From an uncultured Opitutaceae bacterium (GTDB lineage Bacteria; Verrucomicrobiota; Verrucomicrobiia; Opitutales; Opitutaceae): 32,732 nt of DNA. Position 1 is the stretch's first letter. Each line of letters starts with the position of its first letter. Where the stretch lies: the NCBI GenBank assembly GCA_903862595.1, contig CAIOYO010000397.1:1-32732 (forward strand), given 5' to 3'. Below, piece by piece: positions 8,345-29,814 of the stretch. The translations under genes were made by a program, and so were the position numbers. The notes under the pieces are model-generated. The model saw nothing but the letters and a program-made list of their open reading frames with translations, did no database searches and was not told the origin of the DNA.

Positions 8345-8435
8345 CCCGAAAGCGGAACGCGATCCGCGCCGGGACGCAATCCCGCGTCACGCGCCTCTTA
8401 TCCCGGGTGACGCACGCCTCCTCTGCACAAAAGCT

Positions 8436-8450
8436 TGAGCGGAGCGCTCA
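8436..8450. promoter_or_regulatory. Palindrome in the divergent LacI/kinase spacer
   Basis: TGAGCG (8436-8441) and CGCTCA (8445-8450) are perfect arms around GAG, in the 194-nt spacer between the divergent regulator and kinase starts. It could be an operator but does not match the AT-rich palindrome at 7174-7191. In GC-rich DNA a 6-bp arm is weak evidence. No convincing -10/-35 pair was seen here. Confidence 0.25.
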
Positions 8451-8538
8451 CCAGCGTATGCGTCGGGCTCGTCGGAGGCCGCCGGCGATTCCACGCGCTC
8501 ATCCCGGGCCCGTCGCTGCGCGACCTCCCTTCATCGCG

Positions 8539-14550: not shown

Positions 14551-14557
14551 GGCAGAC

Positions 14558-17500
14558 TCAGCGTTTCACCACAAACTCGTCGTGATTCATCAGCGTGTTC
14601 ACGACCACGGTGGCCGCAGCCACCAGCGGGGCCGGGAGGTCCTTCGCCAGCGGAGATGCGCCGGTGGCAGCGTAGGTCTCGGCGGCTTGCGGGCGTGCGG
14701 AGAACACCTGCAGTTGCCGCTCCATCAGGCGGCCGATGATCTCGCGCTCCGTGGAATCGGGCGGCCGGCAGAGCACTTGCTCGAAGGCGGCGCGCACGAG
14801 CGCGTCTCGCTCGCCGCCGTGGACGCGGACAAGCCTTTCCGCGAGGAACCGGGCGGCCTCGACGAACTGGGGGCCATTGAGCAGAATCAGCGCCTGCAGC
14901 GGCGTGTTGGTGGTGTCGCGACGGACCACGCACACCACGCGCTTCGGCACATCGAAGGCTTCGAGCACCGGGGCGGGCCCGGTCCTCCGCCAGAAGGTGT
15001 ATACGCTGCGGCGGTACAGCGCGTCCCCGGTGCCGGCCGGGGCGGGCTTGAATGACTCCGGGATGTCGTAGGTGAAGACGGGAGGTCCGCCGAAGGTCTC
15101 GACGAGCAGTCCGCTGGCCGCAAGGGCCCGGTCGCGAATCATCTCCGCCGGGAGCCGGTGCCGGGGGCCGCGGGCCAGCCAGACGTTGCCGGGGTCCTCC
15201 GCGGCGAGTTCCGGGGCCGCGATGCTGCGCTGGCGGTAGGTCTGGGACAGAACGATCGTGCGCACGAGTGCCTTCAAGTCCCAGCCAGAGCGGATGAACT
15301 CGGTGGCCAGCCAGTCGAGGAGTTCGGGGTGGGAGGGCAGTTCACCCTGACTGCCGAAATCCTCGGAGGTCCGGACCAGGCCGTGGCCGAACAGGGACTG
15401 CCAGAGACGGTTCACGGTCACCCGGGCAAACAGCGGATGGCCCGGGTCGGTCAGCCAGTGGGCGAGTCCGAGCCGATTGCGGGGCTCGCCGGCAGGGAAG
15501 GGTGGTAGGACCTCGGGAGTGCCCGCGGAGACGCTTTCGCCGCGCTGGTCATATTCGCCTCGGCGAAGGATGTAGGCGGTGCGGGGCCGGAAGGACTCCC
15601 GCATGACCATGATCTCCTTCGCTTCCTCGGCCGCGGCGGTCTGGGCGGCGCGCGCGGTGCGCAGCGCGTCGAGCGCTTGGAGATAGGCCGGGTCGTGATT
15701 CACCAGATACGTGTCGAATCGCTCCTCCGGAGCAGCCGCCGCCAGTGCGCCCGCGGTGTCCAGTTCGGTGGCTTCCAGCGGGGTGATCGCGCGGTTGAAG
15801 ATGCGAAGGTCGTCGATCACTCCGTCCTTGAAGATGCGGTCGCGGAAGCGGACGCCGACGGTGAGGGTCCGGCAGGAGAACCCCGGTGGGTTGTACTCCC
15901 GGCAGCCCGTGATGTCTTTGGTCAGGTTGTCCTGGATCACCTCGACTCGGGCCGGCTTCCCATCGACGAAGAGAGAGAGTCCGGACGCTCGGCTGGAGCC
16001 ATCGTAGCTCACAGCGACGTGCACCCACCGATGGAGGGGCAGCGGATCGACGGCGCGGATGGAGATGGCGTTGCCGGGCCAGAAGTGGATGAGGGACCAG
16101 CGCAGCCGACCTCCGTCGAGGATCAACTCGTAGCCGCGACTCCCGCTGTCGCTCGCCGCACTGGAGCGATGGAAGACGACCGCTCGTTCCTCCGCGCGGG
16201 CGGTCTGGACCCGGAGCGCGACGGAGAAGGGGTCGTGCCGCTGGAAGTTGCCCACGGAGGTGTTGACCGGGAAGTCGCCTCCGATGCGGAGGGCGCTGCC
16301 GCTGGAGCCGTTCGCGTGCCGGTACTCCGCGGGTGACGTGGCGTAGTCTCCCGGCTTCACCCGGTTCGCGAACCGCACCAGCGGCACGTTCGGTTCTTCG
16401 TTGGGAACGTTCGGGTCCTTGGATGCCTTCGTGGCGTCGGGCACCTCGGCTGGGGGAACGGGTTCCGATTGGTCGAAGCTGAAGCTCGCGATCTCGCCCG
16501 TCATGCGCAGGCCCTCCGCCGGGGCCCCGGCGACCCAGCGTGCGAAGGCCGGGCGGGCGGCCGAGCGCGCCTCGGCGAGGGTCTTTTCCGCCGCGCGCAC
16601 CGCGGCGGTGGCGACCGCGTGCTTGTGGCGTTGGGCCTCGTCGGGCAGCCACAGCGTGGGGGTGGGCGTCGACTCCGGCCCCAGCGCGTACAGGCCCGCC
16701 TCGTCGATGTCCTGAAAGAACGCGGAGAGGGAGTAAAACTCCCGCTGGGAGATCGGGTCGTACTTGTGGTCGTGGCAGCGCGCGCACTCCAGCGTCAGGC
16801 CGAGGAACGCGGCACCAAACGTGGTGGTGCGGTCGTTGACGTGGTTGATCCGGTACTCCTCCTCCACAGAGCCGGCCTCGGCTTCCTGCGCGTGCAGGCG
16901 GTTGAAAGCCGTGGCAAGAACCTGCTCATCGGTCGCGTTGGGCAGGAGATCGCCGGCGAGTTGCCAGGTCACGAACTGGTCCCACGGCAGGTTGCGGTTG
17001 AACGCCGTGATCACCCAGTCGCGCCACGGCCACATGTCCCGGGCGCGGTCGATCTGGAAACCGTAACTGTCCGCGTAACGGGCAACGTCGAGCCAGTCGG
17101 CCGCCATCCGTTCGCCGTAGCGGGGCGACGCCAGCAACCGGTCCACGAGCCGGGGAACGGCGTCCGGCGCAGGGTCAGCGGCGAAGGCGGCGACATCCTC
17201 GGGCGTCGGAGGGAGGCCGTTCAGGTCGAGCGTGAGCCGACGGATGAGCGTGCGGCGATCCGCCTCCGGCTGCAGGTGCAGTTGGCGGCGGGCGAGGGAA
17301 GCCGCGACCCAACGGTCGATCGCGGACAGGTCGGAGGGAAGGGGAGGCGTTGCCTGTGGCGGGCTGCTCGCCTCGACGTGGGGCGGCACGAAGGACCAGT
17401 GTGACTGGTAGTGGGCTCCCTCATCGATCCAGCGCTGGAGCACCGCGACCTCGTTGGGAGTGAGGCGCCCGAGCTTGGCCTCGGGCGGTGGCATCATCTC

Positions 17501-17812
17501 TTCCGCGTCGGCGCTGATGACTCGAACGAGCATCTCGCTCTCCGCACTCTTTCCGGGGACGATGGGTGTGAACCCCTCCCGCGTCCGGGTCGCGCCCTCG
17601 CGGGTATCGAGGCGTAGACGCCCCTTGCGGTTCTCCTCGTCCGGTCCGTGGCAGTGGTAGCACTTATCCGAGAGAATCGGGCGGACCTCCCGATTGAAGT
17701 CGATCGGGCCGGACGGCGTTGCGAGGAGCAGAGGCCCGACGAGGAGCGCCAGTGCTGATGCGGAATTTCGGACTGCACGGACCCGCCCCGAAGGGGCGCG
17801 AGAGCGATCCAT
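14558..17812 (-). CDS. PSD1 protein: PSCyt1, DUF1549, LamG and DUF1553 domains
   Basis: A 1084-residue exported multidomain protein. Order: signal peptide (ASALALLVGPLLLA), PSCyt1 cytochrome domain with haem motif CYHCH at 51-55 and MMPPP further on, DUF1549 with a second CxxCH (CARCHDHKYDP), a LamG/concanavalin-like domain in the middle (GYELILDGGRLRWSLIHF, WVHVAVSYDG, LSLFVDGKPARV), and C-terminal DUF1553 (RVTVNRLWQSLFGHGLVRTS, DFGSQGELPSHPELLDWLA). The LamG module suggests carbohydrate binding and the cytochrome motifs suggest electron transfer. Start choice: 17812 puts the signal peptide close to the N-terminus; in-frame ATGs at 17857 and 17902 are possible. It is followed after 7 nt by the DUF1501 gene and preceded, 266 nt away on the same strand, by a TonB receptor. 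Confidence 0.88.
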   Translation of the reverse strand: MDRSRAPSGRVRAVRNSASALALLVGPLLLATPSGPIDFNREVRPILSDKCYHCHGPDEENRKGRLRLDTREGATRTREGFTPIVPGKSAESEMLVRVISADAEEMMPPPEAKLGRLTPNEVAVLQRWIDEGAHYQSHWSFVPPHVEASSPPQATPPLPSDLSAIDRWVAASLARRQLHLQPEADRRTLIRRLTLDLNGLPPTPEDVAAFAADPAPDAVPRLVDRLLASPRYGERMAADWLDVARYADSYGFQIDRARDMWPWRDWVITAFNRNLPWDQFVTWQLAGDLLPNATDEQVLATAFNRLHAQEAEAGSVEEEYRINHVNDRTTTFGAAFLGLTLECARCHDHKYDPISQREFYSLSAFFQDIDEAGLYALGPESTPTPTLWLPDEAQRHKHAVATAAVRAAEKTLAEARSAARPAFARWVAGAPAEGLRMTGEIASFSFDQSEPVPPAEVPDATKASKDPNVPNEEPNVPLVRFANRVKPGDYATSPAEYRHANGSSGSALRIGGDFPVNTSVGNFQRHDPFSVALRVQTARAEERAVVFHRSSAASDSGSRGYELILDGGRLRWSLIHFWPGNAISIRAVDPLPLHRWVHVAVSYDGSSRASGLSLFVDGKPARVEVIQDNLTKDITGCREYNPPGFSCRTLTVGVRFRDRIFKDGVIDDLRIFNRAITPLEATELDTAGALAAAAPEERFDTYLVNHDPAYLQALDALRTARAAQTAAAEEAKEIMVMRESFRPRTAYILRRGEYDQRGESVSAGTPEVLPPFPAGEPRNRLGLAHWLTDPGHPLFARVTVNRLWQSLFGHGLVRTSEDFGSQGELPSHPELLDWLATEFIRSGWDLKALVRTIVLSQTYRQRSIAAPELAAEDPGNVWLARGPRHRLPAEMIRDRALAASGLLVETFGGPPVFTYDIPESFKPAPAGTGDALYRRSVYTFWRRTGPAPVLEAFDVPKRVVCVVRRDTTNTPLQALILLNGPQFVEAARFLAERLVRVHGGERDALVRAAFEQVLCRPPDSTEREIIGRLMERQLQVFSARPQAAETYAATGASPLAKDLPAPLVAAATVVVNTLMNHDEFVVKR

Positions 17813-17903
17813 CAGGACGGTTAGGAATGCGGCCGGTTTGGTGGGAGCCGATTTCATGCGTGGACAAACTAGCCGGCTGCTGTTTCTGCCAAACCGCTGC
17901 ATG

Positions 17904-18078: not shown

Positions 18079-20334
18079 TTAGTACTTAACCGTCGCGGTC
18101 AGGTAGACGGTGCGCGGTGAGTCGACCGTATTGCTGCCGGGGGCGATGGCGGCCTGCACGAAGACAACGTCGGTCAGGTTCTCGCAGGTGAGGGCGAAAT
18201 CCCAATTCTTCCGCCGGTAATTGAGACCTGCGTCCCAGCGGGTGGCACCGGGAAGCTGGTAGGTGTTCTCCGCGATGCCCCAGACCTCGGTTTGGTGGAC
18301 CACGCCGGCGCGGACCGAAAAGCCAGTGGCGCGCTCGGCGACGAAGTCATACTTGGCGAAGGCCTGGATCTTGTGCTTGGGGATGCCGCGAAGTTCGCGT
18401 GGCGAGCGGCCATCGGACTTGAAGCCAGGGGCCTGCGTTTCCGTGTAGGCGTAGCCTCCGACGAGGGCGAGGTTACGGCGGAGGCTGCCGCTGAACTCGA
18501 CCTCCCAGCCCTTGGCCATATTGCCGCTCTCGATGATGTTTTGGGAGCCGCCGGGAACGTTCACGATGTCGTTGCTCGTGTTGTTGCGGACGTTGTCGAC
18601 CTGCACGATTTCGAAGTGGGCGACGTTGATGCCGAGTGCGCCGTCGAGCAGGCTCGCCTTGACGCCGAATTCGTCATTCGTCGTCAGCGGGGTGACCGTG
18701 CGGAGAATCTGGCGGGGATCGGTGAGCGGAATGTTCGGGAAGATCGCGACTTGGCGGCTGGCCGCGCCCGCCTCGCTGTAGACGGCGTAGGCGGACAGCC
18801 ACGGCAGCGGCTTGAGCGTGAGTCCGTACATTGGGCTCTCGACGGTCGGGGTGGTCTTCACGTTGGTGTAGGCCCCGGTGAAGTTGTTGCGTGTCCACGA
18901 GGCCTTGCCTTGGTCACGGCGCAGGCCGCCGGTCAGTACCACGCGCTCGTTGAATCCGGTGAGTTGGGCGTTGGCAAAGTAGCCGAAGTTGCCGCCCTTG
19001 GAGGTGTTGTCGACCGTCTTCACCATTGGCGTGCGTAGGGGTACACCGTAGACGGGACTGCTGATGTTGATCGGCTCCATCTGTCCGCTTGTCGTGGTGC
19101 CTGCGCCGTCGGTGCGGCCTAGGTCGTAGCCGACGAGGATCGTGGCGCCGAGCTTGCCGTCCATCCACTTCGTGGTGCCGACGATGTCTCCCTGCGCCCG
19201 CAGGATCTGGCTCTCGGCGGTGCTGCGCGTCGCGTTACGCTCGTAGACGATCTCGCCATTGCTGTTGTACGCAAAGAAATTGGCGACGACGGAGCGGTAG
19301 TGGTTGGTCGAACTGTCGAAGTACGACACCGCTTGTCGGGCGGCGAAGACATCGTTGAACTGGTGGGTGATGGTCGTGAAGATGGAGTAGAGATCAGCGT
19401 AGAATCCCATTCCTGCTTCGCCGCTGGTGTTGAGCGACATCGGGGCCCACTGGCCCAAGGCGAAGCGCGGCGTCACGCCCGCGGGAACAACAACCGCCTG
19501 AGGCACGCTAATAGCGCTCGTCTGGCTGACGGTGTTCACCGGCGCGATGTACGGGGTACTGAAACCGCCCGGGGTCAGGCCGTCGAAGTACTCCAGATCG
19601 ACCGAGATCTGGGTTTTGTTCGACACCTGCCAGAGGAAGGACGGGTACAGCGCCGTCTTGCGGAGCTTTTCATTGGCGCGGAAGCTGTCGGCGGTCAGTT
19701 GAACTGCATTGAGCCGGTAGGCCATGCTGGTGCCCGCGATCGGCCCCGTGGCGTCGATCGTTCCGCGGAGAAAACCGCGCGAGCCTACGGTTGCGGCGGC
19801 CACTACGGACTCCTTCATCTGGGGGCGCTTCGTGATGATGTTGACGTATCCGCCCGACTCCGACGAACCGGCGATCGAGGCTGACGGACCCTTGATGATC
19901 TCGATCCGATCCACATTGATCATGTCGGTCTCGAAGCCCGGGACGAGGAAGCCATTGCGGTAACGATTCGAGACGATGAAGCCGCGGATGACGCTGCCAT
20001 CGCGGACGTTCTGGCGCTGGGTCACGCCTGGGGTGTAGCGCACCGCCTGCTCGTAGGAGAAGGCTGAGATGTCCTTCAGCAAGTTCTCGTTCAACACGCT
20101 GATCGTCTGCGGCACGTTTTCGGCCGGCGTGTTGAGGCGCGTGGCAGAGGCGAGATTTGACGAGCCGTAGGCGCGGGCGGGGTTCTCCTTCACCGTGAAC
20201 ACGTCCAAGGTGATCGTGGATTCTTCCTTGGGGGGCGGCGGAGCCTGCTGGGCGAACGCGAAGGGCGCTAAGGCGAGAATGGCAGCATACAGTGAGTAAG
20301 TGCGATGGGGGCTCTGGGGACGTTGTGGTTTCAT
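18079..20334 (-). CDS. TonB-dependent outer-membrane receptor (second)
   Basis: A 751-residue receptor. It has a signal peptide (SLYAAILALAPFAFA-QQ), a proline-rich linker, a TonB-box-like ITLDVFTVKE stretch near residue 41, a plug domain (TISVLNENLLKDISAFSYEQ, IRGFIVSNRYRNGFLVPG, RIEIIKGPSASIAGSSESGG), and a barrel ending in the aromatic TATVKY. The plug resembles siderophore/FhuE-type receptors, so an iron chelate is possible, but two copies of the GntR-type operator in its upstream region tie it to the adjacent CoA and cytochrome genes, which suggests an organic carbon substrate. The leader is C-rich (AACCCATCCCC before ATG) without Shine-Dalgarno. It shares low overall similarity with the first receptor in this window. 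Confidence 0.93.
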   Translation of the reverse strand: MKPQRPQSPHRTYSLYAAILALAPFAFAQQAPPPPKEESTITLDVFTVKENPARAYGSSNLASATRLNTPAENVPQTISVLNENLLKDISAFSYEQAVRYTPGVTQRQNVRDGSVIRGFIVSNRYRNGFLVPGFETDMINVDRIEIIKGPSASIAGSSESGGYVNIITKRPQMKESVVAAATVGSRGFLRGTIDATGPIAGTSMAYRLNAVQLTADSFRANEKLRKTALYPSFLWQVSNKTQISVDLEYFDGLTPGGFSTPYIAPVNTVSQTSAISVPQAVVVPAGVTPRFALGQWAPMSLNTSGEAGMGFYADLYSIFTTITHQFNDVFAARQAVSYFDSSTNHYRSVVANFFAYNSNGEIVYERNATRSTAESQILRAQGDIVGTTKWMDGKLGATILVGYDLGRTDGAGTTTSGQMEPINISSPVYGVPLRTPMVKTVDNTSKGGNFGYFANAQLTGFNERVVLTGGLRRDQGKASWTRNNFTGAYTNVKTTPTVESPMYGLTLKPLPWLSAYAVYSEAGAASRQVAIFPNIPLTDPRQILRTVTPLTTNDEFGVKASLLDGALGINVAHFEIVQVDNVRNNTSNDIVNVPGGSQNIIESGNMAKGWEVEFSGSLRRNLALVGGYAYTETQAPGFKSDGRSPRELRGIPKHKIQAFAKYDFVAERATGFSVRAGVVHQTEVWGIAENTYQLPGATRWDAGLNYRRKNWDFALTCENLTDVVFVQAAIAPGSNTVDSPRTVYLTATVKY

Positions 20335-20488
20335 GGGGATGGGTTAGAAACGGGGGCGGGGTGTGGCATCGCTCGGCGCGGATCGCTCGAACGGAGCCTG
20401 CGGGTAGCTGCGGACGGGGCGGAGTGGCGAGGCCGCGGTGCGACCTCAGGTTAGGTTTGCCGGGGGCGCAGCGCCAAACTCTGGGTAG

Positions 20489-20527
20489 AAATTGTCAACA
20501 ATCGGGTCAAGGGAAATTGTTAACAAA
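20489..20527. promoter_or_regulatory. Tandem GntR-type operator boxes before the TonB receptor
   Basis: Two near-identical 14-mers, AAATTGTCAACAAT (20489-20502) and AAATTGTTAACAAA (20514-20527), repeat with a 25-bp period. Each contains a palindromic core TTGT-YR-ACAA. They lie 154-192 bp upstream of the receptor start, in the 288-bp gap behind the enoyl-CoA hydratase gene. The same core recurs at 21467 and 23464, next to the GntR regulator. On the receptor strand the first box reads TTGTTGACAA and so contains TTGACA, a -35-like hexamer. The 25-bp step may allow two dimers to bind side by side. Confidence 0.7.
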
Positions 20528-20622
20528 CGCCTATCTCTCCGTCGTGACGAGCCGTGGGAGGACCAACATTGTTGGCAAGAGCGGTGCGCTCCGAGCGGAT
20601 CAGGGTGGTCGAGACTGGCGGC

Positions 20623-21408
20623 TTACGGGTTGGTTTTGGCGGCGCGCCGGGTGGCGAAGAACTGTGCGAGACGCTGGGTCGCATCGCCGCTGGAGAGGCA
20701 GCGCTGGGATGCGTCTGCTTCGATCTGGGCGTTTTCCGCGAGTGAGACCTCGCTGCACGTGGCGAGGATGGTCTTCGTCTCGCGAACGGCCGAGCGGCTG
20801 TTCGCGGCGACGGCGGTGGTGAAGGCGCGGACGCGGCCGGGGAGGTCGATGCTGGGCCCGGTCCAATCGACCAAGCCGATCCTGCTTGCCTCGTCGGGTT
20901 CGACGATTCGCGCAGTAAAGGCGAGCTCCTTGGCCCGTGCGAGTCCGATGCGTCGGGCGAGGCGGTAGCAGCCACCCCAGCCGGTTACGAGGCCGAGCTT
21001 GGCCTCCGTCTGGCCGAAGCGGGCGGTCTCTGACGCGAAGATGAGATCGCATGCCATGGCCAGCTCCAGTCCTCCACCGAGAGCGTAGCCCTCGACAAGT
21101 GCCACCACCGGCAGCGGAAGCGCCTCGAGCCGGTTCATGAGCTGGTGGCCGCGGTGAACCCACGCGCCCACGGTATCGGCGGTGATGGTTTCCATCACGT
21201 TGAGGTTCGCGCCGGCGCAGAAAAATTTCGGCGAGTGGCTGCGAAGCACGACTGCGACCAACGTGGCGGCGCGCGACTCGATTTCGGCGCAGGCGGCGTC
21301 GAGTTCTTCGATCACGCGGTAGTCCAGGGTGGGAGGTTTTCCCTCCGGAGCGCTCAAGGCGAGATGCGCGATGGCTTCGACGTAGCTGAGGGTGACCTCG
21401 GTTCGCAT
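20623..21408 (-). CDS. Enoyl-CoA hydratase/isomerase (crotonase family)
   Basis: A 261-residue cytoplasmic crotonase. The oxyanion-hole segment FCAGANL is at 63-69 and EGYALGGGLELAMACD at 106-121. Both glutamates used by true hydratases appear present: E115 (GGGLE) and E135 (FGQTEAKLG), followed by GWGG. This favours hydration or dehydration of a 2-enoyl-CoA or a related 3-hydroxyacyl-CoA. The start at 21408 is chosen because the family begins at the first beta-strand and because an operator-like box at 21467-21476 would otherwise fall in the coding region or abut the ATG at 21456; the frame is open to 21483. It is divergent from a type III CoA-transferase, an arrangement that recalls CaiB with CaiD in carnitine metabolism. 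Confidence 0.88.
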   Translation of the reverse strand: MRTEVTLSYVEAIAHLALSAPEGKPPTLDYRVIEELDAACAEIESRAATLVAVVLRSHSPKFFCAGANLNVMETITADTVGAWVHRGHQLMNRLEALPLPVVALVEGYALGGGLELAMACDLIFASETARFGQTEAKLGLVTGWGGCYRLARRIGLARAKELAFTARIVEPDEASRIGLVDWTGPSIDLPGRVRAFTTAVAANSRSAVRETKTILATCSEVSLAENAQIEADASQRCLSSGDATQRLAQFFATRRAAKTNP

Positions 21409-21466
21409 GAAAGGGTCGGTTTGACTCCGCGGAGGCGGAGCCAGAACAGACGGCATGTCAAACGTA

Positions 21467-21476
21467 TTGTTGACAA
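21467..21476. promoter_or_regulatory. GntR-type operator between hydratase and CoA-transferase
   Basis: TTGTTGACAA is the exact reverse complement of the core at 20492-20501. It sits in the 99-bp divergent spacer and overlaps the -35-like hexamer TTGACA (21470-21475) of the CoA-transferase, so binding there should block that promoter. Its edge lies 58 nt from the hydratase start, the same distance as the box near the GntR gene from the GntR start. Confidence 0.7.
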
Positions 21477-21498
21477 AATACAATCACCCTTTGCTATT
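21470..21498 (+). promoter_or_regulatory. Predicted sigma70-type promoter of the CoA-transferase gene
   Basis: TTGACA at 21470-21475 is a consensus -35; 17 bp later GCTATT (21493-21498) is a weak -10. The ATG is at 21508, so the leader would be very short. The perfect -35 inside the operator core supports regulation by occlusion. The -10 assignment is uncertain. Confidence 0.4.
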
Positions 21499-21507
21499 CA
21501 CCGTTCA

Positions 21508-22740
21508 ATGCATCCTTCCGAGTCGGCGCTCAGTGGCATCCGGGTTCTGGATTTTACCCATGTCTATCAGGGTCCTGTGGGTACCCAGATCCTCGCTGAC
21601 TACGGTGCCGACGTCATTAAGGTCGAACGACCCGGCGCGGGTGACTGGAGTCGCCGCTGGGGCCCGTTCGTTCACGGCGTGAGCCTGCCCTTCGCTGGCT
21701 TGAACCGGAACAAGCGGAGCGTGGCGATCGACGTGAAGAGCCCGCTCGGTCGCCGGGCTGTGTACGACCTCGTGGCGAAGGCGGACGTGGTGGTGCACAA
21801 CTTCCGCGCCGGTGTGATGGAGAAGCTGGGCTTTGGCTATGACGAGCTGGCGAGAATCAACCCGCGCTTGGTCTACGCGTGGTCGGGTGGCTGGGGGGAT
21901 CGCGGACCATCGGCGGACCGTGCGCGGGGTGGGCATGACTTGATGGCGAGGGCCGAGGCCGGCTGGTTTGTTCAGCCGGACCGCGCGAAACCCCCGATCC
22001 CGGCTGGCATCTCGGCCGACTACGCCGCTGGGCTGATGCTGATGCAGGGAATCCTGATGGCCTTGCTCGCCCGCGTGCGGACGGGCCGCGGGCAGCGTGT
22101 CACGACCGATCTGCTGAGCGTCGCGTTCCACGCGCACTCGTGGGAGGGGCCCGCGGAGATGAATGCCGAGCGGGTCACCGAAGTCTCCGGGGTGATCGCC
22201 AACGAGAGCATCATCGACAAGTCGTTCGCGACCAGCGACGGCTACATCGAGATTTCACCCGTCTTTAGTGAAAACGCGCTGCGCGACATTTCGGTGGCGC
22301 TGGGCCTCGGGGACCTCTCCACGGACGCGCGCTTCGTCACGTTCGAACGCCAGGCCGAGAACCGTGTGACGTTGAACACGCTGCTGGCGGAGCGGTTGCG
22401 AGCGAAGACGACCTCCGAGTGGTTGGTGGAGCTCGAGGCCAAGGGAGTTCTCTGCGCCCGCATCAACACCATCGCGGAGGCGGCGCTCGATCCGCAAATC
22501 GAGGCAAATCAGATGGTGGTCGAGATGGAGCATCCATCCGCTGGTCACTTTCGATTGCTCGGCACGCCGGTGCGGCTCTACGGGACGCCACCGCAGCCGC
22601 GCGTGTTTGCGCCCGAACTGGGGCGGCATAGTCGGGAAGTCCTGCTCGAGTGCGGTTACTCCGTTGAGCAGGTGACGGATCTCGAGGCTCAAGGCGTTGT
22701 CCACACCGCTCCGGCTGCCGCGGCTCCAGCTGCCTCGTGA
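21508..22740 (+). CDS. Type III CoA-transferase (CaiB/BaiF family)
   Basis: A 410-residue family III CoA-transferase or racemase. Typical elements are GIRVLDFTHVYQGPVGTQIL at the N-terminus, ADYGADVIKVERPG (30-43), NRNKRSVAIDVKSPLGR, and the likely catalytic aspartate D144 in GGHDLMARAEAG, equivalent to the Asp of formyl-CoA transferase. The C-terminal region ends in an alanine-rich tail. It would move CoA from a donor such as succinyl-CoA to a carboxylic acid; racemisation of an acyl-CoA is the alternative. The start at 21508 fits the family N-terminus; the open frame extends upstream through the divergent hydratase gene. Control is probably by the operator box overlapping its -35. It converges on the GntR gene, with a palindrome between them. 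Confidence 0.9.
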   Translation: MHPSESALSGIRVLDFTHVYQGPVGTQILADYGADVIKVERPGAGDWSRRWGPFVHGVSLPFAGLNRNKRSVAIDVKSPLGRRAVYDLVAKADVVVHNFRAGVMEKLGFGYDELARINPRLVYAWSGGWGDRGPSADRARGGHDLMARAEAGWFVQPDRAKPPIPAGISADYAAGLMLMQGILMALLARVRTGRGQRVTTDLLSVAFHAHSWEGPAEMNAERVTEVSGVIANESIIDKSFATSDGYIEISPVFSENALRDISVALGLGDLSTDARFVTFERQAENRVTLNTLLAERLRAKTTSEWLVELEAKGVLCARINTIAEAALDPQIEANQMVVEMEHPSAGHFRLLGTPVRLYGTPPQPRVFAPELGRHSREVLLECGYSVEQVTDLEAQGVVHTAPAAAAPAAS

Positions 22741-22776
22741 AGAGGCCCGCCAGAGGAAAGTGTCGCTTTGACGCGT

Positions 22777-22795
22777 GTATCGATGAAATCGATAC
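22777..22795. terminator. Perfect palindrome between convergent genes, possible bidirectional terminator
   Basis: GTATCGAT (22777-22784) and ATCGATAC (22788-22795) pair perfectly around GAA in the 65-nt gap between the convergent CoA-transferase and GntR genes. The position suits a bidirectional terminator. The stem is rather AT-rich and only TTT follows on the plus strand, so a protein-binding site is the alternative. Confidence 0.45.
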
Positions 22796-22805
22796 TTTGG
22801 GGCGG

Positions 22806-23405
22806 TCAGACGATATGGCTTTTCAGTGCCTCGAGCGCCTCCCACTCGCGCCCCCCGTGCATCGCCCGCACGATGCTCGCGTGTTCGTGATAGCTCTCCA
22901 TCAGGTCACGGTGCCGTGAGTAGCGCAGGAACATCCGGAGCATGATCGGGAGCCACAGGTCCACGAGACTTCCCTTGTCCGCAGTCTCCACGAGCAGTCG
23001 GTGAAAGGCCATGTCGAGTTCCACCACCTGCGCAAGATCGCTGCCGCCGCAGGCCTCCCGGTAGAGCGCGAGATTGTCGTCGAGCCGTCGGAGGAGTGAG
23101 GGATCCCTCGTCTCGAACCAGGCGGTGACCGCGGATGCCTCGATCTCGCGTCGGAGGTGTACAATTACGTTTCGCTTGAAGCCGGAAGGTTCGGCGGCGA
23201 CGCGGACCCCGACGTTGGGCTTCGCGACGAGAAGGCCTTCCTTGGTCAGGTGCAGCAGCGCATCCCGGATGGGGCCGCGGCTGATTCCGAACTCAAGCGC
23301 CAGTGATTGCTCGCGCAGCGGCGTTCCGGGCAGAAGCTGTCCAGAGAGAATCCTTCGTCGGAGGTGCGACGCGACCTGTTCCTGCAGGTTGGAGGCCAGC
23401 TTCAT
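22806..23405 (-). CDS. GntR-family regulator, FadR/FCD subfamily
   Basis: A 199-residue repressor-type regulator. Residues about 5-72 form a winged helix-turn-helix (VASHLRRRILSGQLLPGTPL, EFGISRGPIRDALLHLTKEG). An all-helical FCD effector domain follows, with the expected metal-binding set D131, H135 (ELDMAFHR), H175 (YHEHASIVRA) and H197 near the C-terminus. FCD proteins often bind organic acids such as lactate, gluconate or acyl compounds. The ATG at 23405 is preferred; an in-frame TTG at 23444 would add 13 residues, and the ATG at 23460 is out of frame. Operator-like box TTGTTGACAA lies 58 nt upstream of 23405, which suggests autoregulation and control of neighbouring operons carrying the same box. 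Confidence 0.9.
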   Translation of the reverse strand: MKLASNLQEQVASHLRRRILSGQLLPGTPLREQSLALEFGISRGPIRDALLHLTKEGLLVAKPNVGVRVAAEPSGFKRNVIVHLRREIEASAVTAWFETRDPSLLRRLDDNLALYREACGGSDLAQVVELDMAFHRLLVETADKGSLVDLWLPIMLRMFLRYSRHRDLMESYHEHASIVRAMHGGREWEALEALKSHIV

Positions 23406-23463
23406 CAGAGGGGAGAGGGCAAGCTTCAGGGACAGAGAAGGCAATCCCGTTTGTCGTCATTGA

Positions 23464-23473
23464 TTGTTGACAA
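23464..23473. promoter_or_regulatory. GntR-type operator between gntR-like gene and secretory operon
   Basis: TTGTTGACAA, identical to the box at 21467-21476, lies in the 170-bp divergent spacer. It contains TTGACA at 23467-23472, oriented towards the isomerase-cytochrome-propeller operon. A half-similar copy begins at 23488 (AAATTGTC, matching the first eight bases of the receptor box, then AACA at 23500-23503), about 25 bp on, echoing the tandem spacing at 20489-20527. No good -10 is seen. Confidence 0.65.
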
Positions 23474-23575
23474 ATGACAATAAGGGCAAATTGTCTGCCA
23501 ACAGCGGTGGCTTTGCTCTGCGTCTGGTCGTACTTCGTGAGGAGTCGCCGTCTTACACCCCGTCACGCGTTCGCC

Positions 23576-24538
23576 ATGTCCATCCCGTCTCACCCGCGTT
23601 CGTCTCTCCCGGTTTCGCGGCGCGCGTTTCTCCAGCGAGCCGGACTCTCGGTGGCGGCGGTGGCCGCCGGCTCCTCCTCGCTCGGCGCGGCGGGTACGGA
23701 GGAGTTCGCTCTTCGATACGCCGTCGCCTCCAGCCTTTACGGTGGCTTGTCATTGGATGAGATACTTCCAGAGGTGCGCAAGCAGGGTTCCTCCGCTATT
23801 GATCTTTGGCCGCGGCGACATGGCACGCAGCGGGAAGAAGCGGATGCTTGGGGGCGCGAGCGGCTCTCGCGGACCCTCGCCCTTCACGGGGTCCAGTTGG
23901 CGCTGACGACGCGATTCGACCTTGGGCCGTTCGCGTTGGAGCAGGAAATCGGCTTCGTCGCCTCCCATGGGGGGCGATTGATCGTGACGGCAGCGAAGGG
24001 CGAGACCGGGCTGAAGGGGTCGGCCCTCAAGGAGGCGGTGCGGCGCTTCGTTGAGGCGATGCGACCGACGCTGGACCGAGCGGGTGCAGCCGGCGTGGAG
24101 ATCGCGATCGAGAACCACAGCAACACGCTCGTGAACCCGGCTGAATCAATTCTTTGGCTGCGGGACTTTTCCCATGGATTGCCTCTTGGGATTGCGCTCG
24201 CGCCGTACCATTTGCCGCCGGACCCTGCGCTCCTCGCGGGGCTGATTCGCGATCTTGGTGATCGTCTGCTGCTCTTCTACGCGTGGGAGTACGGTCGCGG
24301 CTGCATGAAGCCAATGCCTCTGGAAGAGGAGTTGATGCAGCTGCCTGGTCGCGGCCTCTTTGACTGGGCACCGCCGCTGCGGGCCCTCCGCGACATTCGC
24401 TTCGCGGGCTGGACGGAGATCTTCATGCATCCGACGCCGCGCGGCCGACCGATTCTAGAGACGGCTGGGCAGGTGACTGCTGAGATCAACCGTGCGCGCG
24501 AGCACTTGGAGAAGGTGCTGGTCGGCTTGCCGCGATGA
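23576..24538 (+). CDS. Tat-exported sugar phosphate isomerase/epimerase-like TIM barrel
   Basis: A 320-residue protein of the xylose-isomerase-like/AP-endonuclease-2 TIM-barrel superfamily. Its N-terminus has a consensus twin-arginine signal, SRRAFLQRAGLSVAAVAAG (14-32), so it should be exported folded. Barrel landmarks are GSSAIDLWPRR (71-81), GGRLIVTAAKG, VEIAIENHSNT with the likely metal ligand E179, IALAPYHLPPD, and the C-terminal AGWTEIFMHPTPRG. It may isomerise, epimerise or dehydrate a sugar or sugar acid in the periplasm; phosphorylated substrates are unlikely there. The start follows from the Tat motif; the frame is open upstream to 23474. It is the first gene of a coupled three-gene operon, its TGA overlapping the cytochrome start as ATGA. 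Confidence 0.88.
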   Translation: MSIPSHPRSSLPVSRRAFLQRAGLSVAAVAAGSSSLGAAGTEEFALRYAVASSLYGGLSLDEILPEVRKQGSSAIDLWPRRHGTQREEADAWGRERLSRTLALHGVQLALTTRFDLGPFALEQEIGFVASHGGRLIVTAAKGETGLKGSALKEAVRRFVEAMRPTLDRAGAAGVEIAIENHSNTLVNPAESILWLRDFSHGLPLGIALAPYHLPPDPALLAGLIRDLGDRLLLFYAWEYGRGCMKPMPLEEELMQLPGRGLFDWAPPLRALRDIRFAGWTEIFMHPTPRGRPILETAGQVTAEINRAREHLEKVLVGLPR

Positions 24539-26754
24539 ACGCCATGCTGGCCCTAAGTTTTTTGCGGAGGTGTGGGGCGGTGCTCACGGTCCTCGGATTC
24601 GGACTAGTGTCGGGAGTGGTCGTGCGCGCTGCGCCAGTCGTAGCAGGTTTCGAGCGATTTCATCGTGGGAAAGCTGACGCCTTGGCTCGTACGGAGGGCG
24701 GATTGCTGCTGCTCAGTGAATTGAACTGCGTCGCGTGTCATCAGCTCCCCGGTGGCGACGGGTTGACCAGTCGACCGCGTCTGTCGCTTAGCGAGGCTGG
24801 GTCACGTTTATCCTTGGACTCGCTCGCCGCCTTCATCGCGGATCCGCATCGGGTGAAGCCAGGAACGTTGATGCCGCAGGTGGCTCTGGCTCCCGGCGAG
24901 GCAGAGGCACTCGCAGCATATCTGGGATCACTCGCGAGTCCGCAGATCGACCCTGCATCGATCGCCGGTTCGGTGGAATCTGGTCGCGGCCTGTATCACG
25001 CGGTGGGATGTGTGGCCTGTCATGCGGCGGACACATCGTTGACGCCTCCGTCGGCGGCCGGCGGGGCCGCCGTCTCTCAACCTTCTGCGGTGGTGCCGCT
25101 GGGTTTGGCCGCGCAATATGACCGCTCGGCCCTCGTGCGCTTCTTGATGGATCCTCTCAGCGTTCGTCCCGCGGGGCGTATGCCAGATAGCCACCTGACC
25201 CTCGCGGAAGCGATCGACATCGCGGCCTATCTTCAGCGGGCCTCTAGCCCGGCTTCAGCGGGAGAGGTAGAGGCCGCCGCGTCGCCCTTGATTAAGGAGG
25301 GCCGGCGCCTGTTCGCTGCCCGTGGGTGTGTGGCCTGTCACGTGGCCGACGACACAGACGTGGCGATTCCGGTGTCCGCACGAGTGGTACCTGCCATCAG
25401 TGGTCTTGCTGGTTCCGCGGTCGGCGGGTGCCTCGCGGAGACTCGATCTGCTCCGGCTCCTGACTTCCAGCTCGATGCCGTGCAACGCGGGGCGTTGGTT
25501 GCGGCACTGCAGCGCCTTCAGGAGGATTCAGCGTTCGCGCATCCGGAGCCCGAGCGAGACGTCGAGCGTTTTCTCGCGCGAATGAACTGTTACGCGTGCC
25601 ACTCGCGTGATGGACGTGGCGGAGTCGAGCCCTCGCTACGTCACTTTTTCGGCCTCAGTGACTCCAGCGCTCACTCGATTGGTGAGCTTGGCAATCTTCC
25701 TCCAGCGCTCGACCACACGGGTCGTAAGCTTACCCGATCGTGGTTGGCCAAGCTGCTCTGGGAGGGTGGGGGCGAAGTCCGGCCCTACCAGATCGCGCGC
25801 ATGCCTGCGTTTGGTCAGGCCGTGTGCGAGTCCGTGCTCGAGCGCTGGGAGGAGGCGGATCGCAGGACAACGCCGGTCGCGATCGATGTCAGTGGTCAAA
25901 AGTTGCACCAGCGCTCGGCCTACGGTCGTAGTCTGATGGGGACGCAGGATGGTGGGCTGGGCTGCATCACCTGTCATGGCCTGCGCGATCGCCCTGCGAC
26001 CGGCGTTTCGGCAGTACCTCTGGACCACACCGCCCAGCGGCTGCGGCCAGAATATTTCAAGGAGTTGCTCCTTGATCCGCAGTCCGTGCAGCCTGGTACG
26101 TTGATGCCGCCGATGTTCATGGGGCGGGCCAAGGCCGACCAGGAGATTGAACAAATCTGGACCTACCTGAAGGAAGTCGACCAGCAGCTTTTGCCGGAGG
26201 GTCTCCTGCGCACGGGCGAGTACGAACTCAGGCCTGAGGCGGTCGGGCAGACCCTCGTGTTTCGCACCTTCCTTCAGGCGGCCGGGCTCGAGGCGGTCGC
26301 GGTGGGAAGCCCGACGGGTCGGCACGCCGCGTTTGACGCTCGGGAAGTGCGGTGGGCGCTGACGTGGCGGGGGCGGTTCCTTGATGCCTTGACCACGTGG
26401 GAGGAGCGCGCGATGACGCCGGCGAAGGCGCTCGGTGAGAACGTTACGGAGCTGCCCGCTTGGACGTCTTTTATGCGGGATGGTTCGGGCGCTTCCGAGG
26501 CTGCCATAAAGTATCGGTATAGAGGATATACGATCGGGCCAGACGGCGTTCCCACATTTCGCTACGAGGTTGAGGCGTTGCGGGTTGAGGATACGCTGCG
26601 GCCTGATGAAAAAGGTGACGGCTACCGAAGGACAGTAGTGGTGCGCGGTGGCGGCGCCGGTTGGGTCTTCCGCGGGATGTCGCCCGGCTCGCAGCCGCGT
26701 CCCGTTTCGTTCGACGCGGCGGGCGAGGCTGTCCTCGAGGAATTGCTGCCATGA
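24535..26754 (+). CDS. Exported five-haem c-type cytochrome with C-terminal beta domain
   Basis: A 739-residue exported protein with five CxxCH haem sites at 65-69, 159-163, 265-269, 352-356 and 477-481. A signal anchor or signal peptide (AVLTVLGFGLVSGVVVRAA) lies at the N-terminus. Methionine ligand loops are visible for four modules: TLMP (111-114), GRMP (214-217), ARMP (421-424) and TLMP (522-525). Module 3 has SAPAPDF where a MPDF-type loop is expected. From about residue 555 no haem motif occurs; this part (FRTFLQAAGLEAVAVGSPTG, WALTWRGRFLD, YRYRGYTIGPDGVPTFRYEV) resembles the beta-rich tail seen with verrucomicrobial dehydrogenase-type cytochromes. It overlaps both neighbours by ATGA, so it is stoichiometrically coupled with the isomerase and the propeller protein and is the likely electron acceptor of the latter. 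Confidence 0.9.
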   Translation: MNAMLALSFLRRCGAVLTVLGFGLVSGVVVRAAPVVAGFERFHRGKADALARTEGGLLLLSELNCVACHQLPGGDGLTSRPRLSLSEAGSRLSLDSLAAFIADPHRVKPGTLMPQVALAPGEAEALAAYLGSLASPQIDPASIAGSVESGRGLYHAVGCVACHAADTSLTPPSAAGGAAVSQPSAVVPLGLAAQYDRSALVRFLMDPLSVRPAGRMPDSHLTLAEAIDIAAYLQRASSPASAGEVEAAASPLIKEGRRLFAARGCVACHVADDTDVAIPVSARVVPAISGLAGSAVGGCLAETRSAPAPDFQLDAVQRGALVAALQRLQEDSAFAHPEPERDVERFLARMNCYACHSRDGRGGVEPSLRHFFGLSDSSAHSIGELGNLPPALDHTGRKLTRSWLAKLLWEGGGEVRPYQIARMPAFGQAVCESVLERWEEADRRTTPVAIDVSGQKLHQRSAYGRSLMGTQDGGLGCITCHGLRDRPATGVSAVPLDHTAQRLRPEYFKELLLDPQSVQPGTLMPPMFMGRAKADQEIEQIWTYLKEVDQQLLPEGLLRTGEYELRPEAVGQTLVFRTFLQAAGLEAVAVGSPTGRHAAFDAREVRWALTWRGRFLDALTTWEERAMTPAKALGENVTELPAWTSFMRDGSGASEAAIKYRYRGYTIGPDGVPTFRYEVEALRVEDTLRPDEKGDGYRRTVVVRGGGAGWVFRGMSPGSQPRPVSFDAAGEAVLEELLP

Positions 26755-28304
26755 TTCACTTTTCCCTGATTTTCGTTCCGCGAAAGACGAAGGGTTTCGC
26801 GCCGGCGGTACGCACCGTTCTGCTGGCTTGGTGGAGTTTGCTCTTGATCAACGGGCCGGTGCTTCCCCTGTCCGGCGCGGGCGTCGAGAAGCCGCGGGGT
26901 GTCTACGAGCTTGAACCTTACGCGCTCCCGACGGAGAGCAAGTTCGAGGTGAGTGGGATCGCGACGCTGCCGGATGGTCGTGCCGCGCTCACGCTGCGTA
27001 AGGGCGAGGTTTGGATCCTCGAGAACCCGCTCGAAGATCCATCCCGTGCACGTTTCCGGCGATTCGCGAGCGGGCTGCATGAACCGCTGGGGTTGGCGTG
27101 GCACGATGGCGCCCTTTACACCGCCCAGCGCAGCGAAATCACGCGGATGGAGGATCGCAATGGCGATGGCGTGGCGGATGCCTACGAGACCGCGGCGAAA
27201 GGTTGGGGCCTGTCCGGAAACTACCACGAGTATGCCTACGGGCCAGTGTTTGATCACGCGGGCAATCTTTGGGTGACGCTCAATGTCACGATTGGCTCGC
27301 CAGCGAAGATTTCCGGGCACCGCGCCGGGCCGCCGCTGTGGCGTGGATGGGCGATGCGTCAGGCCCCTGGTGGAGAGCTCCTGCCCGTAGCAGCCGGCCT
27401 TCGTTCGCCCTTCGGGTTGGGTACCAATTTGGAAGGTGATGTCTTTGCCACCGATCAGCAGGGTAACTGGTGGGGAACGTGCCCGCTCGTCCATCTCCGG
27501 CCGGGAAAGTTTTACGGTCACGGCGACTCCATCCCCGACATGCGGCGCCCGGAGTCGCCGGTCCAAGATCCCGGAACGTTGCCGGCTGGACTGACGGTGG
27601 TTGAGGCAGCGGAGCGGATCCCTGGTTTCGCCCTTCCCGCCGTGTGGTTTCCATACGTGAAGATGGGCCAGAGCACCACGGGGATTGTGTGTGACCGTAC
27701 CGGCGGTGCCTTCGGTCCGTTCGCCGGTCAGCTCTTCATCGGCGACTTCACCCTGGCGCAGGTAAACCGAGTTTTTCTCGAGAAAGTCGACGGCGAGTAC
27801 CAGGGCGCCTGCTTTCCCTTCATGGACCGGCTGCAATCGGCGGTACTCCAGATGGCGTTTCTCTCGGATGGCTCCATGATTGTCGGCGAGTCCAACCGCG
27901 GCTGGAATTCGCTCGGCTCGCGTTCGTTCGGGTTGGAGCGGATCCGCTGGACGGGGACGACTCCCTTCGAGATCCAGACCATGGAGGCCACGCCTGACGG
28001 CTTCCGCCTGACCTTCACGGAGCCGCTGGAGGCGGGCGTGACGCCTGAGCCCACTCAGTTCGTGATTAACGGCTACACCTACCTCTATCAGCAGGCCTAC
28101 GGAAGTCCGGAGACGGACACGCTGCCGGTTAAGGTCGAGCAGGTGACGGTGAGCGACGATCGACGACGCGTGACGCTCCGTTGCGTCGGACTTCGGGCCG
28201 GCTATGTGCACGAGCTTGCGTTGGGGGCCTTGCGCTCCGCGACCGGGCAGGCGCTTCGATACAATCGGGCCTACTACACCCTGAACCGAATTCCTACGCG
28301 TTGA
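26751..28304 (+). CDS. Secreted beta-propeller dehydrogenase-like protein (sorbosone/sGDH type)
   Basis: A 517-residue exported protein with a hydrophobic signal segment at about 21-42 (TVLLAWWSLLLINGPVLPL). It has a six-bladed propeller of the NHL/soluble quinoprotein glucose dehydrogenase type: SGIATLPDGRAALTLRKGEV, GLHEPLGLAWHDGALYTAQR, a calcium-like loop DRNGDGVAD (135-143), AAGLRSPFGLGTNLEGDVFA, and GPFAGQLFIGDF. This matches the putative membrane-bound dehydrogenase domain family of Pirellula and Verrucomicrobium (TIGR02604-like). The last 130 residues form an Ig-like tail. PQQ binding cannot be shown from sequence, and many relatives have no proven activity. The start ATG at 26751 overlaps the cytochrome stop, so the frame open from 26661 is not used. 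Bases 28305-28530 after it hold no recognised element. Confidence 0.88.
   Translation: MIHFSLIFVPRKTKGFAPAVRTVLLAWWSLLLINGPVLPLSGAGVEKPRGVYELEPYALPTESKFEVSGIATLPDGRAALTLRKGEVWILENPLEDPSRARFRRFASGLHEPLGLAWHDGALYTAQRSEITRMEDRNGDGVADAYETAAKGWGLSGNYHEYAYGPVFDHAGNLWVTLNVTIGSPAKISGHRAGPPLWRGWAMRQAPGGELLPVAAGLRSPFGLGTNLEGDVFATDQQGNWWGTCPLVHLRPGKFYGHGDSIPDMRRPESPVQDPGTLPAGLTVVEAAERIPGFALPAVWFPYVKMGQSTTGIVCDRTGGAFGPFAGQLFIGDFTLAQVNRVFLEKVDGEYQGACFPFMDRLQSAVLQMAFLSDGSMIVGESNRGWNSLGSRSFGLERIRWTGTTPFEIQTMEATPDGFRLTFTEPLEAGVTPEPTQFVINGYTYLYQQAYGSPETDTLPVKVEQVTVSDDRRRVTLRCVGLRAGYVHELALGALRSATGQALRYNRAYYTLNRIPTR

Positions 28305-28512: not shown

Positions 28513-29814
<1,302 letters not shown>

Follow-up and report, generated by a model that had tools for sequence, protein, structure and literature searches.

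An exported propeller and cytochrome gene pair of Opitutaceae and its relatives, a candidate respiratory sugar-oxidizing system with interchangeable haem and copper carriers

What might an exported barrel protein, a five-haem cytochrome, and a propeller protein do together when their genes overlap end to end? The question is raised by a contig of 32,732 nucleotides (CAIOYO010000397.1 of assembly GCA_903862595.1, here G000:C397 and hereafter the window, meaning this whole stretch), a single contig within the 3.34 Mb genome of an uncultured Opitutaceae bacterium, in which positions 23576-28304 of the forward strand encode three proteins. P1 (23576..24538, 320 residues) is a xylose-isomerase-like triose-phosphate isomerase (TIM) barrel with a twin-arginine (Tat) motif, as judged from Pfam, alignment, and fold; P2 (24535..26754, 739 residues) is a five-domain c-type cytochrome with a C-terminal DUF6797-like domain, from Pfam and alignment; and P3 (26751..28304, 517 residues) is an exported six-bladed propeller of the DUF7133 family, from Pfam, fold, and conservation. 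The original prediction, made from the sequence of the window alone, saw here a coupled periplasmic module that rearranges and oxidizes a sugar or hydroxy acid, and its description of the genes was accurate: the trio lies where it was placed, the P1/P2 and P2/P3 junctions both read ATGA, the middle protein has five CxxCH motifs (residues 65, 159, 265, 352, and 477), and all three products have export signals, a twin-arginine motif in P1 and ordinary hydrophobic signal stretches, judged by eye, in P2 and P3.

The same prediction treated the three genes as one conserved unit, and on this point comparison with related loci gave a different answer: the conserved unit is the propeller (DUF7133) together with the C-terminal, DUF6797-like domain of the cytochrome gene. 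When genome contigs were scanned with P3, 183 relatives were confirmed, of which we kept the best 80, mainly from Verrucomicrobiota and Planctomycetota and also from Hydrogenedentota, Omnitrophota, Acidobacteriota, Bacteroidota, and one Magnetovibrio record; the closest relatives of the window among them are Opitutaceae. Genes in these loci are plain open reading frames (ORFs), often overlong at the 5' end, and distances were measured between matched segments. In all but one of the 66 loci that offer at least 2.5 kb of sequence before P3, a P2-type gene was found no more than 3 kb upstream of it; the exception, L062, has none in that reach. Among these 65 genes, 58 have at least four CxxCH motifs, six from Bacteroidota have no haem motif, and the one in L053 has a split frame. 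P1, by contrast, was found within 7 kb upstream in 29 of the 60 loci with at least 4.5 kb upstream of P3, and on this count we reject the view that the three genes form a strict unit. At the ATGA position, 42 of the 74 loci that have a P2-type gene show a start codon in frame with P3. In L053 (Verrucomicrobium sp. BvORR106, 7374-9898), P2 falls into two ORFs, which we read as a frame shift or an assembly error; the close relative BvORR034 (L070) has a single ORF.

Among 103 sampled genomes of the same order, P3 has a match (E 1e-20) in 25, and seven other genomes of the same family listed in that sample have no P3, so its distribution is patchy. Of the 25 genomes with P3, the window's included, nine have a match to P2 (1e-15) and six to P1 (1e-5). 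The three genes also occur together in G048, G064, and G068, and G042 has the P2-type gene first, followed by P3 and then P1. The window's own genome has a second, distant propeller homolog of 37% identity at a contig end (G000:C211 9479-10699, L043), and no P2-type partner was seen on that contig piece.

The evidence that best tells what the pair does comes from relatives in which the haems have been replaced. In Bacteroidota, the partner of the propeller resembles P2 solely over the P2 C-terminal domain (query residues about 566-724; in the window, residues 566-724 are encoded at 26230..26706 of the forward strand), which is thus the part of P2 held in common with haem-less partners. Pfam, applied to two of the six Bacteroidota loci, describes this partner as a DUF1080 (3-keto-disaccharide hydrolase) domain, a PA14 domain, and the P2 C-terminal domain, and finds a cupredoxin at the C-terminus of the propeller itself. 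All six propellers have the complete type-1 copper motif (H...C-x4-H-x3-M), and all six loci match a DUF1080 profile made from five of them, although L118 has its DUF1080 and C-terminal parts in two separate ORFs. Three loci of Chitinophagales type (L117, L120, and L121) have a pyridoxal-dependent decarboxylase-like gene between the DUF1080 partner and the propeller.

A similar exchange is seen closer to the window. We read 18 further stretches picked from the list of the 103-genome order sample. Across loci L032-L042 and L156-L172, 28 stand-alone propellers reach more than 380 bits; this count leaves out a 909-residue fused protein in L167, the weaker or long L038 3406-6219, L043, and L173, a pair of ORFs that score 15-16 bits, and the duplicate of a G068 gene that is present in both L034 and L035. 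In 27 of the 28, the gene next upstream matches the P2 C-terminal domain, weakly in L164 (30 bits) and for the second gene of L160 (7896-9269, 35 bits); the exception, L159, has a DUF1080 gene in that place. A carrier could be assigned in 25 of the 27: five haems in eight (L032, L033, L035, and L038-L042), one haem in eight (L034, L157, L164, L165, L166, L168, L170, and L172), an N-terminal cupredoxin in eight (L036, L156, L158, L160, L162, L163, L169, and L171), and a cupredoxin on the propeller in one (L161, by the copper motif alone, with no Pfam match at E 0.01). Seven of the eight N-terminal cupredoxins were recognized by Pfam, that of L036 weakly (SoxE, E 0.0016), and that of L162 by the copper motif alone; the two remaining cases are L037, which meets a contig end, and the second gene of L160, which has no CxxCH. 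Counting the six Bacteroidota and L161, the carrier forms part of the propeller chain in seven cases. On a tree of 60 propellers, made by a quick method, picked to include all four carrier states, and unsure at the long branches L164, L161, and L036, the carrier states need 6 changes, where the least possible is 3 and the mean for shuffled states is 21.6. In L169 (2918-4972) and L171 (7446-9584), a cupredoxin, the P2 C-terminal domain, CBM6/CBM35, and laminin-G are joined in a single partner chain.

We read these loci as variants of a single enzyme core, the propeller plus the P2 C-terminal domain, with a replaceable one-electron carrier. If haem and copper carriers can be exchanged around the same core, the propeller is therefore likely to be a redox enzyme, and this is our main argument; the exchange points to an uncharacterized family of respiratory sugar-oxidizing enzymes. 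Together with the fold of P3 described below, it also supports the earlier proposal that the propeller feeds electrons to a periplasmic multihaem cytochrome. The C-terminal domain itself stands at the edge of DUF6797 (PF20601), scoring 14.7 bits in the window and 22.6 in L036, below the cut-off of 24.9, and 27.5 in L156 and 29.0 in L158, above it.

The carrier in the window is a cytochrome. Pfam finds PF00034, above its cut-off, over five stretches of P2 (95 bits), and the count of five CxxCH motifs compares with a mean of 0.004 and a maximum of 1 in 2000 letter shuffles. We aligned P2 with 65 homologs scoring above 200 bits and 650-900 residues long (n = 66, the L034 copy and others dropped), and 64 of these 65 have exactly five CxxCH motifs. 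On the forward strand of the window, the haem 1 motif is CVACH at residues 65-69 (24727..24741), with Met113 conserved in 62 of 66; the haem 2 motif CVACH at 159-163 (25009..25023), with Met216 in 64 of 66; the haem 4 motif CYACH at 352-356 (25588..25602), with Met423 in 66 of 66; and the haem 5 motif CITCH at 477-481 (25963..25977), with Met524 likewise in 66 of 66. Haem 3 (CVACH, 265-269, 25327..25341) has no conserved Met. Where its Met ligand would be expected there is Cys299 (codon at 25429-25431), conserved in 64 of 66 sequences, and His/Cys ligation of haem 3 is for this reason a good but unproved guess. The two exceptions, L032 and L033, retain haem 3, and L082, which has no haem-3 motif, retains the Cys299 counterpart and has also lost two of the Mets.

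P3 belongs to DUF7133 (PF23500, 36.8 bits against a cut-off of 27), and its predicted model has a predicted local distance difference test score (pLDDT) of 93.8. The best fold neighbor of this model is 3a9g (Z 29.0, root mean square deviation 3.1, 298 aligned residues), and six chains of sugar dehydrogenases that use pyrroloquinoline quinone (PQQ) occupy the range Z 27.2-29.0, with the next rows at about 24-24.5; around Z 24 come a Diels-Alderase, lactonases, and other propellers, with fungal AA12 enzymes at 23.8-23.9. One could argue from these lower rows that P3 is a lactonase-like hydrolase or a carbohydrate-binding scaffold without redox function, the haem and copper domains serving some other oxidase or reductase; no cofactor site was recognized in P3, and the PA14, CBM6/CBM35, and DUF1080 domains that occur on partner proteins of related propellers include PA14 and CBM domains that suggest binding. 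We consider this unlikely, since 25 of the 27 loci of the order have a haem or copper carrier alongside the pair, since the carrier lies inside the propeller chain in the seven cases noted, and since the lactonases trail the top six sugar-dehydrogenase rows by about 3-4.5 Z units.

If P3 is a dehydrogenase, is it a PQQ enzyme? Soluble PQQ glucose and aldose sugar dehydrogenases (PF07995; 3a9g, 2ism, 3das, 2g8s, and 1cru) share with P3 the six-bladed propeller and the positions of the catalytic His and Arg, and with the module a sugar context and an external electron acceptor. A single profile comparison of P3 with GSDH proteins gave a probability of 94 (E 1.2e-7). P3 itself has no PF07995 (GSDH) match at E 0.1, and some more distant propellers of the order weakly pass the cut-off of that family (G011:C22 at 27.6 bits, for example). 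A direct search of the PDB with the P3 sequence gave no match, and a search with the P3 profile gave designed and natural propellers matched through short repeats plus one unrelated glucosidase. As neither search gave a usable match, we located the cofactor positions by way of GSDH proteins encoded in the same genomes, 14 of 21 listed loci being kept because their frame had no stop, with the starts in L149 and L136 differing and possibly off frame. His159 and Arg218 of P3 are identical in 60 of 60 propellers, and they are the counterparts of H144 and R228 of the Acinetobacter calcoaceticus enzyme, which we take to be its catalytic His and Arg. Arg218 aligns directly with the catalytic Arg, and His159 falls within one residue of the aligned His, so with this one-residue shift the equivalence of the His is likely and not exact. 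A DxNxDxxxD loop at residues 135-143 is nearly invariant as well (its three Asp in 59, 58, and 58 of 60) and may bind calcium. Of the outcomes that would have told against the original prediction, about half has come about: the trio is not universal, but the propeller keeps a fully conserved polar centre.

The positions that should hold PQQ look otherwise. Presumably, R406 and R408 of the A. calcoaceticus enzyme form the Arg pair that binds the PQQ carboxylates; the aligned P3 positions are 364 (G in 34, A in 25, P in 1) and 366 (L in 27, V in 13, I in 11, F in 3, C in 3, N in 3), with Arg in none of the 60 and never in a set of 89 rows. The gene pqqC was found in none of 22 hosts searched (of the 25 that have P3); across the phylum, 4 of 145 genomes passed the cut-off of this profile, while none of the 14 controls of the 22-genome search gave a match. 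For pqqE no host of the 22 passed the cut-off, with matches below it in 12 of the 22 and in all 14 controls, so that this result carries little weight. Given the missing Arg pair and pqqC, any PQQ that the enzyme uses would have to be scavenged and bound in another way, and we do not accept PQQ as the settled cofactor. That P3 is nonetheless a true PQQ-dependent aldose dehydrogenase, oxidizing C1 to the lactone with scavenged PQQ and passing electrons to P2, with P1 incidental, could draw on its nearest fold rows, the GSDH profile match, the invariant His and Arg, and the precedent of Escherichia coli, which has such an aldose dehydrogenase without making PQQ; the absence of Arg at 364 and 366, of pqqC, and of a PF07995 match makes it decidedly unlikely. 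P3 further differs from these enzymes in having a DUF6797-like partner domain encoded next door and an extra C-terminal beta domain.

Clues to the substrate in the preferred reading, in which the propeller is a dehydrogenase core with an exchangeable carrier, come from the surroundings of the pair. The original prediction overlooked that the operon belongs to a syntenic island whose other genes (18079-23444) comprise, by synteny in Opitutaceae, a GntR/FCD regulator divergent from P1 (22806..23444, minus strand), a family III CoA-transferase (21499..22740, plus), and an enoyl-CoA hydratase/isomerase family protein (20623..21483, minus), and, by synteny, a TonB-dependent receptor (18079..20334, minus). 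The order TonB receptor, enoyl-CoA hydratase, CoA-transferase III, GntR, P1, P2, P3 is common to the window and L044, L046, L047, L048, L050, and L108, and L049 has the identical order over the part covered.

These loci also share a DNA site. The gap between GntR and P1 has an invariant ATTGTTGACAA core in six of six aligned loci, and TTGTNNACAA occurs four times in the window, each time inside the island. Motif search places these candidate operators at 23464..23473 (TTGTTGACAA, plus strand) between GntR and P1, at 21467..21476 (TTGTTGACAA, plus) between the hydratase and the CoA-transferase, and at 20517..20526 (TTGTTAACAA, no strand assigned) and 20492..20501 (TTGTTGACAA on the minus strand) upstream of the TonB receptor. 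Four TTGTNNACAA sites stand at equivalent places in L044, L046, L048, L050 (which has a fifth), and L108; L047 has three, L049 the single one expected, and L045, which begins inside P2, none. Elsewhere there are 17 sites in the 1,103,894 bases of L051-L123. If one mismatch is allowed, the window has 6 occurrences of the full word, with one symmetric site scored on both strands; 100 shuffles gave a mean of 0.49 and a maximum of 5. We infer from these predicted operators a GntR regulon covering the island, although TTGACA in the conserved core could be part of a promoter instead. The ATG at 23576 is preferred as the start of P1 over an alternative upstream start at 23474 because the latter comes directly after the conserved site 23464-23473.

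Directly behind the TonB receptor, the window has a DUF1501 gene and a PSD1/PSCyt gene as a pair (13075-17902, minus strand; the PSCyt/PSD1 gene itself at 14558-17902), and a PSD1 match also stands beside the receptor in L044, L046, L048, and L108, so the island may also include a second cytochrome system. On the other side, a Cys/Met-metabolism pyridoxal-phosphate enzyme (28531-29814) lies directly 3' of the operon and outside the conserved island, being matched in two scanned loci, the window included.

Would the island point to a substrate other than sugar? The CoA-transferase and the hydratase, syntenic in Opitutaceae and sharing the common motif, could mean that the module oxidizes a non-sugar alcohol or acid such as an aromatic or short-chain hydroxy acid. 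We give this little probability, as relatives of these genes (the CoA-transferase in eight and the hydratase in seven Opitutaceae-type loci, window included) occur only there, within the reach of loci that are often short, and the other loci have sulfatases, DUF1080, ThuA, and carbohydrate-binding domains instead. Among the NCBIfam rows shown (for the hydratase the best 25 of 74), none reached its cut-off for either protein, and we dropped the attempt to read a substrate from their family names.

Genes of sugar metabolism stand in the place of P1 in some loci that do not have it. Among 10 such loci, the upstream neighbor is a double DUF1080 gene in L038, a ThuA gene in L040, and a mandelate-racemase-type enolase in L042. 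Genes for 3-keto-disaccharide hydrolases lie directly upstream of the propeller in L159 (4285-5016) and directly upstream of the five-haem gene in L038 (6360-7676). At least 14 loci have a gene of a cluster whose DJ-1/PfpI type was identified from a Pfam scan of one member, on the same strand and 2.0-3.6 kb before the P3 start in 13 of them.

P1 itself is a member of PF01261 (42.1 bits, cut-off 31.1) with fold similarity of Z 23.6 to IolI (1i60). Its twin-arginine motif, SRRAFLQ at residues 14-20, is matched as a regular expression in 32 of 36 P1-type ORFs, a set that includes the window and counts one gene twice, L034 and L035 being overlapping stretches of one genome. Invariant in 35 sequences are E179, H181, H212, Q255, F283, M284, H285, and R289, with a motif FMHPxPRGxP. 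IolI binds its metal, we assume, through Glu, Asp, His, and Glu, and we assigned these roles to the aligned P1 positions: aligned to IolI and TM_0416, the Asp becomes A209 (35 of 35), the His Y235 (32 of 35), and the last Glu F283 (35 of 35, at or just beyond the end of the aligned stretch), so that one ligand of four, E179, is kept. It is therefore very improbable, despite its family membership and its fold, that P1 works as a normal metal-dependent isomerase or epimerase of sugars and feeds the dehydrogenase, as originally proposed, because the D, H, and E ligands of IolI and the ketose epimerases have been replaced.

A different comparison is offered by the eliminases that act on 3-keto-glycosides. 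E179-x-H181, present in 35 of 35, has the spacing, though this is not a superposition, that these enzymes show between their beta-5 metal ligand and their catalytic His, namely His132/His134 in AtOGE and Glu147/His149 in AgCGD2 according to the available portions of two reports (PMC10628242, PMC8563793). To the extent that those portions describe them, OGE and CGE eliminases share with P1 the TIM barrel and a Glu or His ligand followed two residues on by a catalytic His, and differ from it in their other metal ligands (Asp, His, and Glu), which P1 has replaced, and in the Tat motif that P1 has. With three metal ligands gone and the Mn site incomplete, P1 cannot simply be a 3-keto-glycoside eliminase. 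Both AtHYD (8ro4, Z 20.9) and DgpB-DgpC (7exz, Z 20.7) are among its fold neighbors and are only a lead, since other barrels score as high.

How could these parts work together? We propose that the TonB receptor would take up the substrate and that P3 and the P2 C-terminal domain would form a periplasmic carbohydrate dehydrogenase, most likely acting on a glycoside, whose electrons would pass one at a time to the carrier domains of P2, here five c-haems, and on to the respiratory chain. Oxidation would most likely yield a 3-keto sugar or 3-keto-glycoside, and P1, a barrel without the usual metal site, might then cleave or hydrate this product, as DUF1080 enzymes may in related loci. In Opitutaceae, the GntR regulator would control the module together with the TonB receptor, the CoA-transferase, and the enoyl-CoA hydratase, and the released acid or aglycone would enter a CoA pathway through the latter two.

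Several observations weigh against this proposal. P1 was not seen in 31 of the 60 loci with room for it, and P3 is absent from the seven genomes of the same family mentioned above. The PQQ glucose dehydrogenase of A. calcoaceticus (1qbi) scores Z 23.7 to P3, level with the lactonases. Besides the lack of Arg at 364 and 366 and of pqqC in the hosts searched, Pfam shows no flavin or nicotinamide adenine dinucleotide (NAD) domain on P1-P3, so that no organic cofactor site can be named. Seven of the 10 loci without P1 have an unrelated or family-less upstream neighbor and no sugar-related gene there, and the link to 3-keto sugars comes from neighbors and fusions in other organisms, not from the window. 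In known eliminases, loss of metal ligands nearly abolishes or strongly lowers activity, as far as the portions available of PMC10628242 and PMC8563793 go. With the site of oxidation and the reaction of P1 entering as conjecture, the explanation as a whole seems to us evenly balanced between right and wrong; the dehydrogenase core is probable, and oxidation at C3, taken alone, falls a little short of an even chance.

Known systems resemble the module in parts. The PVC-type haem-binding CxxCH proteins (TIGR02604/DUF7133) share their propeller family with P3, which scores 43.2 bits against the curated TIGR02604 cut-off of 122.2; unlike them, P3 has no haem on the propeller chain, its haems being on the separate five-haem partner, and 1 of 97 P3-matching ORFs has a CxxCH. 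The catalytic subunit of LacABC-type enzymes is, we presume, of the GMC type that binds flavin adenine dinucleotide (FAD), whereas P1-P3 have no FAD-type Pfam domain at E 0.1, and the propeller would be an unrelated catalyst. The LacABC-type lactose/glucoside 3-dehydrogenase couples periplasmic C3 oxidation to a DUF1080 step, as far as the available part of PMC9007349 describes it, and DUF1080 likewise adjoins the DUF7133 propeller in some relatives. PSCyt and PSD1, Planctomycete-specific cytochromes described in Verrucomicrobia, resemble the module in being PVC-wide, sugar-associated, and without an assigned function; they have different cytochrome and partner domains, and the available part of PMC5615132 makes no mention of the P2-P3 pair. 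A literature search on DUF6797, DUF7133, and "PVC-type heme-binding" found no paper with these terms, and none of the matches listed concerns the P2-P3 gene pair by title or start of abstract.

Verrucomicrobiota, Planctomycetota, and Bacteroidota degrade complex plant and algal carbohydrates, and many of their propeller and cytochrome genes have no assigned function. For this propeller family, the exchange of haem for copper is a strong and checkable argument for a redox role, and the DUF1080, ThuA, and eliminase-like neighbors supply a concrete candidate class of substrates. In its most extended form, our hypothesis is that DUF7133 propellers with DUF6797 make up a novel type of respiratory glycoside 3-dehydrogenase, relying on none of NAD, FAD, and PQQ in their known modes of binding and delivering electrons to an interchangeable one-electron carrier (five haems including one that would be His/Cys-ligated, one haem, or type-1 copper), that the metal-less P1 strips aglycones from plant and algal glycosides in the periplasm, and that Opitutaceae pass the released acid to the co-regulated CoA-transferase and hydratase. 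In all its parts together this is speculative and rather unlikely to hold. If true, it would make DUF7133 and DUF6797 directly assayable and would give the known 3-keto-glycoside pathways a further route, one based on a propeller and linked to respiration.

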